From: Methanosarcina acetivorans C2A
Lineage (GTDB): Archaea; Halobacteriota; Methanosarcinia; Methanosarcinales; Methanosarcinaceae
Direction of reading: 5' to 3'
NCBI RefSeq assembly: GCF_000007345.1
Contig: NC_003552.1
Location: forward strand, 5,642,001-5,706,000
Length of the DNA: 64,000 bases
Each line of letters begins with the position of its first letter. The stretch's first letter is position 1. Below are positions 2,470 through 59,478 of this stretch, in pieces. The translations under genes and the position numbers were made by a program. The notes beneath the pieces are model-generated. The model saw only the letters and a program-made list of their open reading frames with translations. It searched no databases and was not told where the DNA came from.

Positions 2470-2560
2470 TCCTGAAAGTACAGGCTCAAGAGAGCTTCCT
2501 GAAAGTGAGAAAAATCTAAAATAGGTTTTCCATAGAAAAGTGAGTCCTGAAAGTGAGAAC
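2470..2560 (+). repeat. Direct repeats upstream of FilR1 regulator
   Basis: The motif TCCTGAAAGT occurs three times in the 100 bases before the regulator at 2562. The last two copies extend to TCCTGAAAGTGAGAA. Direct repeats just ahead of a transcription factor gene could be an autoregulatory operator or simple local duplication. The last copy supplies the GTGAG that may serve as ribosome-binding site. The rest of the 2244-2561 gap shows nothing else. Confidence 0.4.
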
Positions 2561-2561
2561 A

Positions 2562-3344
2562 ATGGATAAAATGCTGACAGACCTGCTCTTTATGTCCCAG
2601 AAAAGAAAGGACCTTTTGCTTCTTCTAAGAAACGGAGGGAAAACAATAGAGGAAATTATAGATACTCTTAATGTTACCTCGACGGGAATGCTCCCTCAAA
2701 TAAAAAAATTAAAGGATGATTCACTGGTTTTGCAGGATGAAAAGGAATACAGGCTTACCCCTCTGGCAGAAATTCTGGTTGAAAAAATGCAGCCTCTTCT
2801 TGATATTCTTGAGGTTATCGAGGAAAATAAGGATTTCTGGCAGGAGCGAGACCTGAGTGGTTTGCCTCCAGCATTTCTCGAAAGGCTTAACGAATTAAAA
2901 CCTTATTCTCTTGTAAAACCCGACAACGACAAACTTTTTGAGACTCATTCAGTATTTCTGGAAAACGTGGAAAAATCAAAAGACATCCTTTCTCTGGCTT
3001 CGATATTCCACCCGGTATTTTCGGAGACATTTCTGAGAACTGATGACAAAGATTCCGAAATTACCCTTATAGTAACAAAAAGAATTTATGAAAGGCTGAG
3101 AACCGACTTTGAAAAAAAACTGGAACTTTACCTGAAACAGGAGAAAAAGCGGCTTTTTGTCTGCGACAACGAAGTAAAAATAGCTATGATGACAAAAACC
3201 GAACATTTCATGATGGCAGATTTCCTTACATGGAAAGGAGCCTATGACCGGGAGAGTATCATAAGCTTTGAACCTGCTCCTATAAAGTGGGCTGAAGACC
3301 TCATTCTCTATTATAAAGGTCAGGCTCAGGAGATTAAGAGGTAA
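2562..3344 (+). CDS. Winged-helix regulator with FilR1 domain
   Basis: Transcription regulator of about 260 residues. Residues 1-80 form an ArsR-like winged helix (RKDLLLLLRNGGKTIEEIID, then a recognition helix STGMLPQIKKLKDD and a wing ending RLTPLAEILVEKM). The remainder matches the methanogen FilR1/DUF1724 domain seen in Methanosarcina regulators, including the Msr regulators of methyl-transfer genes: a helical linker (LLDILEVIEENKDFWQERDLSGLP) and an alpha/beta sensor part. The ATG at 2562 is preferred; an in-frame GTG lies at 2553. A second family member is at 59530-60285. The target genes and ligand are unknown. The 3' end overlaps the convergent pseudogene by about 20 bases. Confidence 0.8.
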   Translation: MDKMLTDLLFMSQKRKDLLLLLRNGGKTIEEIIDTLNVTSTGMLPQIKKLKDDSLVLQDEKEYRLTPLAEILVEKMQPLLDILEVIEENKDFWQERDLSGLPPAFLERLNELKPYSLVKPDNDKLFETHSVFLENVEKSKDILSLASIFHPVFSETFLRTDDKDSEITLIVTKRIYERLRTDFEKKLELYLKQEKKRLFVCDNEVKIAMMTKTEHFMMADFLTWKGAYDRESIISFEPAPIKWAEDLILYYKGQAQEIKR

Positions 3345-4116
3345 ATCCTGGCAAAAGAATCATCGAGAGAAGGTTTGGTCTCAACATAAATTATTCCGTC
3401 TCTACAAGCTAAAAAATATCCCGATTTTTCTTTGTAAAGGTTTCCGACTTTATATCCGGAAGTACTGCATTTTTTGTAATCAAGAATCCTTAAACTGAAC
3501 ACCAGCCTGTATAGACCGCTTTTCTTCAACAGAGTAGAATGATACTTCGGAGTACCGTTTAAAAAGTGAAAGACCCTCTCGACACTCCAGTCCTCCCACT
3601 TTATCAGCTTATTATATTCTTCGGGTTTGACTTTTCTGGCCCTTGAGGTAGGACTGGAAACTGGCTGCTTTTTAGTCTCAACACCTCCGTTTTCAAGAGC
3701 TTCCATTGTCTTTCTGAGCAGTTTAATCCCGGCGGAGGCTAATTTTTGACGGATTGCTTTAAATTTCTCCCCTGGACTTAAAAAGACACGTTCCTGATAG
3801 ATGACGTTCCCTGTATCTTCTCTGATAGATGACGTTCCCTGTATCTTCTCTGATAGATGACGTTCCCTGTATCTTCTCCTTTGTCTACGTAGTGCAGGGT
3901 AACCCCTGGATCAAGTATATAATCATAATACTGCCAGAACAGCGGATTTGGTCCCCCGTACTCCGGAAGGTACGAATAATGAATATTAACAGTACCGTAT
4001 GAAGGAACATTGAAGACATTCTCCTTCAATAGGTGAGACATCGAAAACACAACGATAAGATCGGGTTCCAAATTCCTAATATTATTAAAACAAAATTGAA
4101 AGCAAAAGTTAATCAA
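3326..4116 (-). pseudogene. Formyltransferase gene disrupted by 28-bp triplication
   Basis: Two minus-strand frames together encode most of a formyltransferase-family protein. The upstream part (4116 to about 3870) carries the catalytic-domain end: LEPDLIVVFS, NIHYSYLPEYGGPNP, and DPGVTLHYVDKGEDTGNVIYQ. The downstream part (from ~3793 to 3326) carries ERVFLSPGEKFKAIRQ and the C-terminal domain (VKPEEYNKLIKWEDWSVERV). At the junction a 28-bp unit is present three times (about 3794-3877). With one copy the frame would read straight through GEDTGNVIYQERVFL. The two extra copies (56 bp) shift the frame and lead to a stop. The first ~80 residues of the family (formyl-folate site) are also missing, with no homologous remnant upstream. 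Probably inactive. Confidence 0.85.
3794..3877. repeat. 28-bp direct repeat, three copies
   Basis: Three head-to-tail copies of a 28-bp unit (starting TGATAGATGACGTTCCC on the plus strand) interrupt the formyltransferase coding sequence. The copies look identical to each other. Because 28 is not a multiple of three, copy-number change switches the reading frame. A one-copy state would restore continuity of the two frames. Confidence 0.9.
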
Positions 4117-4264
4117 AATTTTTGAATTAAAGATCCATTTTTAATAAAAACCGAGAAAAATAATCCATTGTTAAAACTGCGGACAGAACTGAAGTTTAAG
4201 CAAAAGATAAATTCGAACAGGCTTATCCCTCCATATATAAATTTGAAAGCGAAGAGGAAGATAA

Positions 4265-5107
4265 ATGAAAGGAAGAATAAATAGCAATTCTTTAAAAGCT
4301 GTGAAACTGGTAGCAATCCTGTTCATGATCTTTGCAGTTGCTCTTTCCGGCTGTGTTGACAATGGACAGAATAATACGGATAACCAGACAATAGGTTCGG
4401 CAAACGAGAGCCAGAATACCGGCAATGAAGAATACATATATGGTGTGGCAAATGTTGAAAATATCGATATTCTGACTCTGGAATCTTTCCCCGTGCAGAT
4501 ACACGTGATAGCAGAAGGCCACCTGCCTGATGGATGCACTGAGATTGATGAAATAAAGACTGAAACGGATGGAAATACTTTCAATATCAATATTACGACG
4601 AAACGCCCAAAAGAAGCAATCTGTACCCAGGCTATAGAGAGTTTTACGGAAACGATCCCTCTTGAAGTCCAGGGCCTCAGTGCAGGAAACTATACTGTAA
4701 ACGTTAACGGAGTAAACGGGTCATTCGAACTTGCAGTTGATAACACTCTAGATGAAACTCCCGAAGCTATGCCACCGGAACAGCAGGTAATAACCGAAGC
4801 TGGCAATGGAACAACTATAAGCCTCGAAAAAGGAGAGACTTTTTACCTGAGACTTGAGGAAAACCCAACAACGGGATACTCCTGGGAGCTCAACCTGAGC
4901 CAGGGGCTCAGTCTGGTTTCGGACGATTACTATCCCCCCGAGGCTGAAGAAAGTGAACAGCCCCTTCTTGGTGCCGGAGGAGTTCACCTCTGGGAAATAA
5001 AAGCCGACTCCGAGGGAAAACAGCAGGCAACGGCAATATATAAAAGATCCTGGGAAAATGAAACTGGCACGGAAGACAAATTTATACTTAATGTTGAAGT
5101 GGCCTGA
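4265..5107 (+). CDS. Lipoprotein with chagasin-type protease-inhibitor domain
   Basis: Exported protein of 280 residues. A signal peptide ends in the lipobox ALSGC (Cys at about residue 31), followed by an Asn/Gln/Thr-rich linker, so it is probably lipid-anchored outside the cell. Residues ~75-160 form a first beta-rich domain. Residues ~175-280 match the chagasin (inhibitor I42) fold: the loop motif NPTTGYSW, then GAGGVHLWEIKA and YKRSWE. Chagasins block papain-like cysteine proteases by presenting these three loops. GAGG precedes the ATG by 7 nt. It is the only intact gene between a pseudogene and a repeat-rich spacer. The family call is good; the target protease is unknown. Confidence 0.8.
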   Translation: MKGRINSNSLKAVKLVAILFMIFAVALSGCVDNGQNNTDNQTIGSANESQNTGNEEYIYGVANVENIDILTLESFPVQIHVIAEGHLPDGCTEIDEIKTETDGNTFNINITTKRPKEAICTQAIESFTETIPLEVQGLSAGNYTVNVNGVNGSFELAVDNTLDETPEAMPPEQQVITEAGNGTTISLEKGETFYLRLEENPTTGYSWELNLSQGLSLVSDDYYPPEAEESEQPLLGAGGVHLWEIKADSEGKQQATAIYKRSWENETGTEDKFILNVEVA

Positions 5108-6506: not shown

Positions 6507-6665
6507 CTCATTATATTCAGAAAATTCAAATCCTATCTAAAAAACTCCTCATTATATCCAGAAAACTCAAATCCTATCTAAAAAACTCCTCATTATATCC
6601 AGAAAACTCAAATCCTATCTAAACAACTCAAATCCTATCTGAACAACTCAAATTCTACCTAAATC
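6507..6665. repeat. 41-bp tandem repeat, three copies, with 18-bp sub-repeats
   Basis: Three units of 41 bp begin at 6507, 6548 and 6589 (each CTCATTATAT(T/C)CAGAAAA...). They are followed by further copies of the inner sub-unit ACTCAAATCCTATCT up to about 6665. Non-coding AT-rich spacer between the tRNA genes and SRP54. Confidence 0.85.
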
Positions 6666-31721: not shown

Positions 31722-31800
31722 TTCCTTTTTTATCCGTATCTGTTACCCGGCACTCTTTTTTATCCGTATCTGTTATCCGGTACTCTTTTTTATCCCTGAA
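31722..31800. repeat. 30-bp tandem repeat between convergent genes
   Basis: Three copies at 30-bp spacing (TTTTTTATCC starting near 31726, 31756 and 31786). The first two are nearly identical through GTATCTGTTA(C/T)CCGG. They lie between the HEAT-protein stop and the convergent ABC operon end. Confidence 0.75.
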
Positions 31801-56973: not shown

Positions 56974-59181
56974 ATGGTAAAAGATACAGCAGTCCCGATA
57001 GAAAATAAAAAATTTACCAGGGAAAAAAAAGATAAAGAAAAGGATAAAAAACCTGATAGAGAAAGAGCTGGCAGGAAAACAGGTTTTTTTGTCCCAAAAA
57101 AAGTAGAGACAGGAAAAAAAGGAAAATTAGGACGAAAATCGGAAGGGAAGGCAGAAGAAAAAGCAGAAGGGAAAGCCGGAATCAGCACCTCAACAATATC
57201 TGAAAGGGCAGTTCTGAAACCCTCAGCAGGAAAAAGAAAAAAAGCAGAATCGGGACCTGGAACCAAAACCGGAAAGAAGGAAAAAAAGCAGAAAAAAAGC
57301 TTTTCTTCATCTCTCCCCGCATCAAAATTTCTCCCGATGAGCCCTGAAGAAGTAAAGGCTCGCGGCTGGAAAGAACTTGACATCATCCTGGTTACCGGAG
57401 ATGCCTATGTGGATCATTCCAGTTTCGGGACTGCAATAATAGGAAGGGTCCTTGAGGATGCCGGCTTCAGAGTGGGAATAATTGCCCAGCCCAGATGGGA
57501 TAACCCTGAGGATTTAAAGAAACTCGGGAGGCCCAGACTCTTTTTTTCCGTAAGCGCAGGAAACACCGATTCAATGGTCAGCAACCTGACTCCGGGCCTT
57601 AAACCCCGGAAAAAGGACGCATATTCTCCCGGAAACAAAACAGGGCTTCGTCCAAATCGCTCCGTGATTATCTATTCCAACAGGATAAAAGAAGCTTTCC
57701 CCAATGTGCCGATAGTGCTCGGAGGAATCGAAGCTTCCCTCAGGCGCTTTGCTCATTATGATTATCTTTCGGATAAAGTCAGGCAGGCAATTCTTGCCGA
57801 CGCCCCCGCAGACCTGGTTGTCTATGGCATGGGCGAACTCCAGATCGTAGAAATTGCAAAACGTCTTCAAGCCGGAGAGGACATCCGGAAGATCAGAGAC
57901 ATCCCCGGCACGGTCTGGAAAATGGAAGTCAGAGCCTGGAAAGAGCTCAAAGAAAAGGGCAAAGGGACGAATGAAGCTGTGGCTAGGGATACAGCCCCTG
58001 AAGCAGCCGAATTTTTTAAGGAATATATCGAAATCCCTTCTTTTTCCGAAGTTTCTCAGGATAAAGCGGCTTTTGCAAAAGCTTTCCGCACATATTTTCT
58101 GGAACAGAATCCCATCACCGGAAAAGGCATTGTCCAGCCTCACCCAAAAACCGTTATTGTGCAGAACAGGCCCATGCGTCCTCTGACAGAAGCGGAACTT
58201 GACCATGTTTATGAGCTGCCTTATACGGGGGAAGCCCACCCCTCCTATACCGAGCCCATCCCTGCCCTTGAGATGGTAAAATTCTCCCTGACAACACACA
58301 GGGGCTGTTTCGGAGGCTGTTCTTTTTGCGCCATCACCCAGCACCAGGGGCGTATGATCACAAGCCGCAGTATCGAGTCCGTCCTGCGGGAAGCAAAGAA
58401 GCTTACGGAAAAGCCGGACTTCAAAGGCATAATCAACGGGGTCGGAGGTCCCACTGCCAATATGTACGGCATGGGGTGCAGATCCTGGGAAAAGCAAGGA
58501 GCCTGCCTGGATAAAGCCTGCCTCTACCCGCGGGTCTGCCCGGCTCTCGATACCAGCCATAAAAAACTGCTCGAATTAATGAAGCGCCTGCGCGAGCTTC
58601 CCGGAGTCAAACATGTCTTTACAGGTTACGGCGTGCGCTACGACCTTGCCCTTGAGGATGAGGAATACCTCGAAGAACTCTGCACCCACCACATAAGCGG
58701 GCAGCTGCGGATTGCACCTGAACATTTCTCAAAGCGAGTAACCGATGCAATGTCCAAGCCGGGAAAGAAAGTTTATGAGAGATTTTCCGAAAAATTTGCC
58801 GCCTTTAACAAAAAATGCGGCAAGGAACAGTACATCGTAAACTATCTTATGTCGGGCCACCCGGGATGTACCCTTAAAGATATGATCGAAATGGCGGAGT
58901 ATTTACGGGACCATGGAGGCTACACCGAACAGGTACAGGACTTTACCCCAACACCCATGACGGTATCAACCTGCATGTACTACACGGGGCTTGACCCGTT
59001 CACAGGCAAAAAAGTGTATGTTGCAAAAGATAAAAAAGAAAAAGCCATGCAAAGAGCCCTTATGCACTACAGGAGCCCTGCAAACTATGAACTCGTATAT
59101 GAAGCCCTGGAAAAAGCAGGAAGGCTTGACCTTGTGGGAAACGCTCATAAGTGCTTGATAAGGAGAAAAGAGAAACAATGA
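56974..59181 (+). CDS. YgiQ-family radical SAM protein
   Basis: About 735 residues. An N-terminal Lys/Glu-rich low-complexity tail covers the first ~110 residues. The YgiQ N-terminal domain begins at FLPMSPEEVKARGWKELDI and includes TGDAYVDHSSFG and PIVLGGIEASLRRFAHYDY. The radical SAM cluster motif HRGCFGGCSFC (CxxxCxxC) lies near residue 445, followed by a DUF3362-type C-terminal region (GYTEQVQDFTPTPMTVSTC). It binds 4Fe-4S and S-adenosylmethionine; the substrate of YgiQ proteins is unknown. The ATG at 56974 has GGAAG 6 nt upstream, better than the TTG at 56953. Confidence 0.9.
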   Translation: MVKDTAVPIENKKFTREKKDKEKDKKPDRERAGRKTGFFVPKKVETGKKGKLGRKSEGKAEEKAEGKAGISTSTISERAVLKPSAGKRKKAESGPGTKTGKKEKKQKKSFSSSLPASKFLPMSPEEVKARGWKELDIILVTGDAYVDHSSFGTAIIGRVLEDAGFRVGIIAQPRWDNPEDLKKLGRPRLFFSVSAGNTDSMVSNLTPGLKPRKKDAYSPGNKTGLRPNRSVIIYSNRIKEAFPNVPIVLGGIEASLRRFAHYDYLSDKVRQAILADAPADLVVYGMGELQIVEIAKRLQAGEDIRKIRDIPGTVWKMEVRAWKELKEKGKGTNEAVARDTAPEAAEFFKEYIEIPSFSEVSQDKAAFAKAFRTYFLEQNPITGKGIVQPHPKTVIVQNRPMRPLTEAELDHVYELPYTGEAHPSYTEPIPALEMVKFSLTTHRGCFGGCSFCAITQHQGRMITSRSIESVLREAKKLTEKPDFKGIINGVGGPTANMYGMGCRSWEKQGACLDKACLYPRVCPALDTSHKKLLELMKRLRELPGVKHVFTGYGVRYDLALEDEEYLEELCTHHISGQLRIAPEHFSKRVTDAMSKPGKKVYERFSEKFAAFNKKCGKEQYIVNYLMSGHPGCTLKDMIEMAEYLRDHGGYTEQVQDFTPTPMTVSTCMYYTGLDPFTGKKVYVAKDKKEKAMQRALMHYRSPANYELVYEALEKAGRLDLVGNAHKCLIRRKEKQ

Positions 59182-59235: not shown

Positions 59236-59329
59236 ATTTTCGGGGAAAATTAATGGTTTCCCTCAAAATTTCGGGGAAAATTAATGGTTTCCCTCAAAAT
59301 TTCGGGGAAAATTAATGGTTTCCCTCAAA
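59236..59329. repeat. 31-bp tandem repeat, three copies
   Basis: CGGGGAAAATTAATGGTTTC recurs at 59241, 59272 and 59303, a 31-bp period. Within each unit GGGAAA and TTTCCC can pair. The array abuts the broken gene copy at 59325-59478. Confidence 0.9.
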
Positions 59330-59478
59330 ACCCCCGGCACTCACGCAGGAAAACTCTCAGTTTCCCGCTTACCTGTCCGCAGTAGGTAGTTAAAGGCCTT
59401 TCCTTGATCTCAATTAGCAGGTTTGCTTCTCCATCCCAGCTAAAATGGGCAACTATGCCGTGCCTTCAAGTACCCCTT
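59325..59478 (-). pseudogene. Truncated copy of the small paralog at 63259-63540
   Basis: About 150 bp nearly identical to the 3' end of the gene at 63259-63540. The minus strand still encodes GIVAHFSWDGEANLLIEI, RPLTTYCGQVSGKLR and FLRECRGF with a stop. One base is missing in CTATGCCGTGCC (the intact gene has GTTGCC), which breaks the frame, and the match ends abruptly near 59478. A gene fragment, not functional. Confidence 0.85.

Follow-up and report, generated by a model that had tools for sequence, protein, structure and literature searches.

A 28-bp triplication in what is very probably a decaying formyltransferase-family pseudogene of Methanosarcina acetivorans

Does a tandem repeat that breaks a reading frame in Methanosarcina acetivorans act as a switch, or is it one lesion in a dying gene? 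The question is raised by a minus-strand formyltransferase gene whose two halves lie in different frames on either side of a short repeat array. The preliminary description of the locus proposed that changes in copy number turn this frame on and off. We analysed the window, a 64-kb part of a single-contig genome of 5,751,492 bases, and examined the locus across 31 Methanosarcina genomes, one per species, with no relative above 92% identity in the SRP54 gene. Our results point with high confidence to a decaying pseudogene that acquired a minisatellite private to its lineage, that is, to ordinary gene decay and not to an on/off switch.

The repeat itself is as it was first described. TRF reported a period of 28 bp, 3.0 copies and a 100% match at 3794-3878. 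Exact comparison of the units at 3794-3821, 3822-3849 and 3850-3877 showed them to be identical (sequence CTGATAGATGACGTTCCCTGTATCTTCT), and beyond the third unit the register continues for 1 bp only (3878). A reconstruction with a single unit gave an unbroken minus-strand frame, ...VDKGEDTGNVIYQERVFLSPGEKF..., in which the two halves join as GEDTGNVIYQ-ERVFL, just as had been claimed; reconstructions with two and three units left the frame broken. Division of 28 by three leaves a remainder of one, so the frame is kept with one or four copies and lost with two or three. Extending the reconstruction, a four-copy version would gain 28 residues and stay open, since the unit is free of stops in all frames. 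The features of the locus are collected in Table 1.

Table 1. Features at the formyltransferase locus, in window coordinates.
Feature	Position	Strand	Remarks	Basis
28-bp unit, three identical tandem copies	3794..3877	-	gene-strand unit AGAAGATACAGGGAACGTCATCTATCAG; shifts the formyltransferase frame	TRF; exact comparison; single unit in relatives
Formyltransferase remnant, 5' part (codons 87 to about 162 out of 318 in the orthologue)	3850..4077	-	the motif region (Asn/His, DTG) lies here; 77% identical to query residues 87-167	PF00551; alignments
Formyltransferase remnant, about codon 163 to the stop codon	3326..3793	-	in another frame owing to the array; 76% identity to query residues 155-318 (match takes in part of the array)	ORF 3326-3706; alignment
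Deletion junction region	4078..4136	-	bounded by the ends of homology to intact loci, at 4077 and at 4137-4153	homology limits; ORF start
FilR1-type regulator gene, 263 aa, intact, convergent	2553..3344	+	same neighbour in relatives	PF08350, 5e-29; orthologues in L003-L006
Intact divergent gene for a lipoprotein with a chagasin-type I42 inhibitor domain	4265..5107	+	promoter-like conserved stretch just upstream (4171-4250)	PF09394, 9.8e-28

We wondered what the gene had been before it was broken. The ORF at 3778-4116 matched PF00551 with an E-value of 6.7e-14 and 52.5 bits, and an intact orthologue scored 59.2 bits (cut-off 26.1 in both cases). The match above the curated cut-off confirms the earlier assignment to the formyltransferase family. 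The methionyl-tRNA formyltransferase model TIGR00460 gave 86.8 bits against an equivalog cut-off of 201.5, which places the gene outside it. More generally, the two intact orthologues that were scanned reached the curated cut-off of none of the NCBIfam equivalogs that they matched. The intact gene is distantly related to methionyl-tRNA formyltransferase, to ArnA and to sugar N-formyltransferases, PseJ among them. The domain and motifs of the PF00551 family (Fmt, the ArnA N-domain, PseJ and other sugar N-formyltransferases) are recognisable in both the remnant and the intact orthologues; unlike the members of that family, however, the window copy is broken.

In G010, G023 and G020, an intact 318-codon orthologue lies between the FilR1-type regulator gene and the I42-inhibitor lipoprotein gene. 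Compared with the intact orthologues at the same locus in these and other genomes, the window copy carries disabling lesions. Its homology to them ends at about 4077, which corresponds to codon 87 of 318, so that the N-terminus is indeed missing, as the preliminary description had noted. The two junction points lie about 500-725 bp apart in the intact loci, and the window copy has lost codons 1-86 together with about 260-400 bp further upstream. The deleted upstream sequence probably carried the promoter. Within 4078..4136 we found no similarity to codons 1-86 of the intact gene or to its upstream DNA, and a TTG at 4116, within this non-homologous stretch, is the sole candidate start codon ahead of the remnant. 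Nor was the N-terminal half found to have moved: a search of the genome with the intact protein returned nothing beyond the two pieces of the remnant and a pair of distant paralogues, near 4357332 and 376549.

The 3' end of the distal remnant runs 19 bp into the convergent regulator gene, and a search with this regulator gave four loci, three of them on contigs of G010, G020 and G023. The stretch at 4171-4250 is about 80-88% conserved in most relatives, including ones without the formyltransferase gene, and is probably the promoter and 5' leader of the I42-inhibitor lipoprotein gene. A search for RNA families at the locus found none.

The site was then followed across the genus. The gene is intact in seven of the 31 Methanosarcina genomes (G010, G023, G020, G013, G002, G030 and G004), and all seven orthologues have a single unit at the site: their protein alignment shows no insertion, and the unit DNA was seen directly in several. 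The three-copy array was absent from the other members of the genus searched among these 31 genomes, which gave single-unit matches only. Many other genomes have a decayed or lost gene at the same site, through different lesions. The G009 copy has an internal deletion and frameshifts, those of G012 and G001 have many stops, and that of G015 has stops; G006 and G014 keep 3' remnants only, G007 has a short 3' piece located elsewhere in its genome, and at L085 the formyltransferase gene is completely lost. We infer that the gene has been lost repeatedly in the genus and appears dispensable.

Two further observations concern these remnants. At L016, L018 and L017, the 3' end of the gene (window 3345-3525) persists with stops while the rest is lost, perhaps owing to the abutting 3' end of the convergent regulator gene. 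G001 has two SRP54 loci, L062 (G001:C4) and L029 (G001:C11), which are 86% and 92% identical to that of the window. This suggests that G001 is a mixed assembly of two Methanosarcina species, and its remnant may lie outside the nearer lineage.

How far has the window copy decayed, and in what order did the changes occur? The window copy departs at 18 of the 117 positions that are invariant across the seven intact orthologues, whereas each intact orthologue compared with the other six shows 0-7 departures at invariant positions. Pairwise dN/dS between the window copy and G010 is 0.27, against 0.15-0.27 for closely related intact genes. By these comparisons, the window copy appears to be under relaxed selection, and recently so, since its pairwise dN/dS is only slightly raised. 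The unit holds three of the missense changes, D159N, I160V and C162Y, each of which recurs in every copy. All are private to the window copy, and two of them, D159N and I160V, hit residues that do not vary among the seven intact orthologues. Because they are common to all copies, these missense changes predate the triplication. The N-terminal deletion, the frame-shifting array and the changes at 18 of the 117 invariant positions together bear out the earlier view that the gene is decaying.

One point tells against the pseudogene reading: once the array and truncation are set aside, the 230 codons that are left contain no stop or extra frameshift. Together with the low dN/dS, this implies either that the loss is recent or that a shortened product remained under some constraint for a time. 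In a neutral simulation, the excess of amino-acid changes corresponded to about 0.04-0.08 substitutions per site, a distance at which the chance of remaining free of stops is 12-34%; this is compatible with recent decay and is no proof of it. The absence of any difference across 84 bp upholds the claim that the triplication is recent: since their last homogenisation the copies have diverged by less than about 0.036 substitutions per site. If gene conversion among genome copies is frequent, however, the array may appear too young. We conclude that the decay is recent and that the triplication is likewise recent or recently homogenised.

The same data bear on whether the truncated gene, with one copy of the unit, was still functional, either as a shortened formyltransferase or as a partner protein, and was killed only recently by the triplication alone. 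Such a gene would account for the 230 open codons, the low pairwise dN/dS and the retention of the presumed catalytic Asn/His/Asp region, but it would have had to work with its N-terminal 86 residues gone, nearly half of the formyl-transferase domain, with R128G in the LPEYRGP motif and D159N both at invariant positions, and with no upstream region homologous to that of the intact genes. We consider this very improbable.

We also asked how unusual such an array is in this genome. A published survey found Methanosarcina to be unusually rich in satellites, with 189 in M. acetivorans, and lists NC_003552.1 at 5.75 Mb (PMC6749651). Our own census covered the window and 20 stretches of 20 kb each, 464 kb of the genome in all, and found 107 arrays with a period of 15-60. 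Among them were 17 that were near-perfect and had 2.8 or more copies, about 37 per Mb, and 16 of the 17 lay outside ORFs of at least 120 aa. Three order-1 Markov shuffles of the 464 kb yielded no near-perfect array of at least 2.8 copies, against the 17 observed, showing that the arrays are not due to chance. Perfect, short and head-to-tail (28 x 3), the array at the formyltransferase locus resembles the Methanosarcina satellites of the survey, which are likewise short tandem repeats that occur in large numbers in a genome and whose units mostly measure less than 30 nt (PMC6749651); it differs from them in that it breaks a recognisable former coding sequence. The 28-bp array thus belongs to a common, mostly non-coding class of repeats and happens to lie in former coding sequence.

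Other arrays were seen along the way. In the window, a perfect 31 bp x 3 array occupies 59238-59330, in the intergenic region after a gene ending at 59181; it was not found in eight relatives examined and is apparently private to the genome. Further near-perfect arrays lie at 6507-6629 (41 bp x 3) and 31725-31795 (30 bp x 2.4), as expected from how densely such repeats occur in this genome. G010, too, has an array, a perfect one of 13 bp x 5.4, which lies upstream of its intact formyltransferase gene (L052 1325-1394) and is another sign of array turnover.

We now return to the switch. Bacterial phase-variable (contingency) genes that depend on repeats are otherwise complete, and their repeats are kept across strains. 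The locus is like them in having, inside a reading frame, a tandem unit that is not a multiple of three, with one copy in frame and three out; perfect repeats of such length can alter copy number, and both halves of the gene are otherwise open. A shortened formyltransferase would then be on with one or four copies and off with two or three. Here, however, the gene is truncated: no copy number restores codons 1-86 and the upstream region, the remnant is without a good start codon, and no complete gene exists at any copy number. Nor is the repeat maintained in relatives, where all seven intact orthologues have a single unit and the array is unique among the 31 species, so that no array has been conserved for switching. 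The missense changes at conserved positions, already in place before the triplication, and the mostly non-coding position of comparable arrays in the genome also speak against switching. Phase-variable expression of this kind is very improbable, and we give the same slim chance to one- and four-copy alleles that switch a shortened formyltransferase in natural populations of the species. A literature search joining phase variation, slipped-strand mispairing, archaea and methanogens found no reports. The outcome that the preliminary description had held fatal to its proposal, three copies in all strains and the upstream part of the gene missing everywhere, was not seen, as relatives have an intact gene with one copy.

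Least credible of all is an assembly or cloning error that created the third copy or the entire array in the reference genome: a single genome of the species was compared and short perfect repeats can be mis-assembled, but an array of 84 bp fits within a single Sanger read, and the genome has many similar arrays of differing copy number.

Taken together, these results suggest the following course for the preferred reading, a decaying pseudogene. The ancestor would have had a 318-aa formyltransferase-family gene, which is still whole in several Methanosarcina species. In the lineage leading to the window genome, a deletion would have removed the promoter side and codons 1-86. Then or later, for the order relative to the deletion may have been either, a 28-bp stretch at the DTG motif would have been duplicated and expanded to three copies, shifting the frame, presumably by replication slippage or unequal recombination. 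The array probably has no regulatory role and would persist in the absence of selection to remove it. A neutral minisatellite in a pseudogene is enough to account for all the observations.

The locus is a clean example of gene decay in progress, in which the same gene is whole in some Methanosarcina and broken in various ways in others. The private minisatellite is one lesion among several in a genus-wide decay and has little importance alone. In a satellite-rich genome such as this, a frame-shifting repeat is easily mistaken for a phase-variation switch unless relatives are compared.
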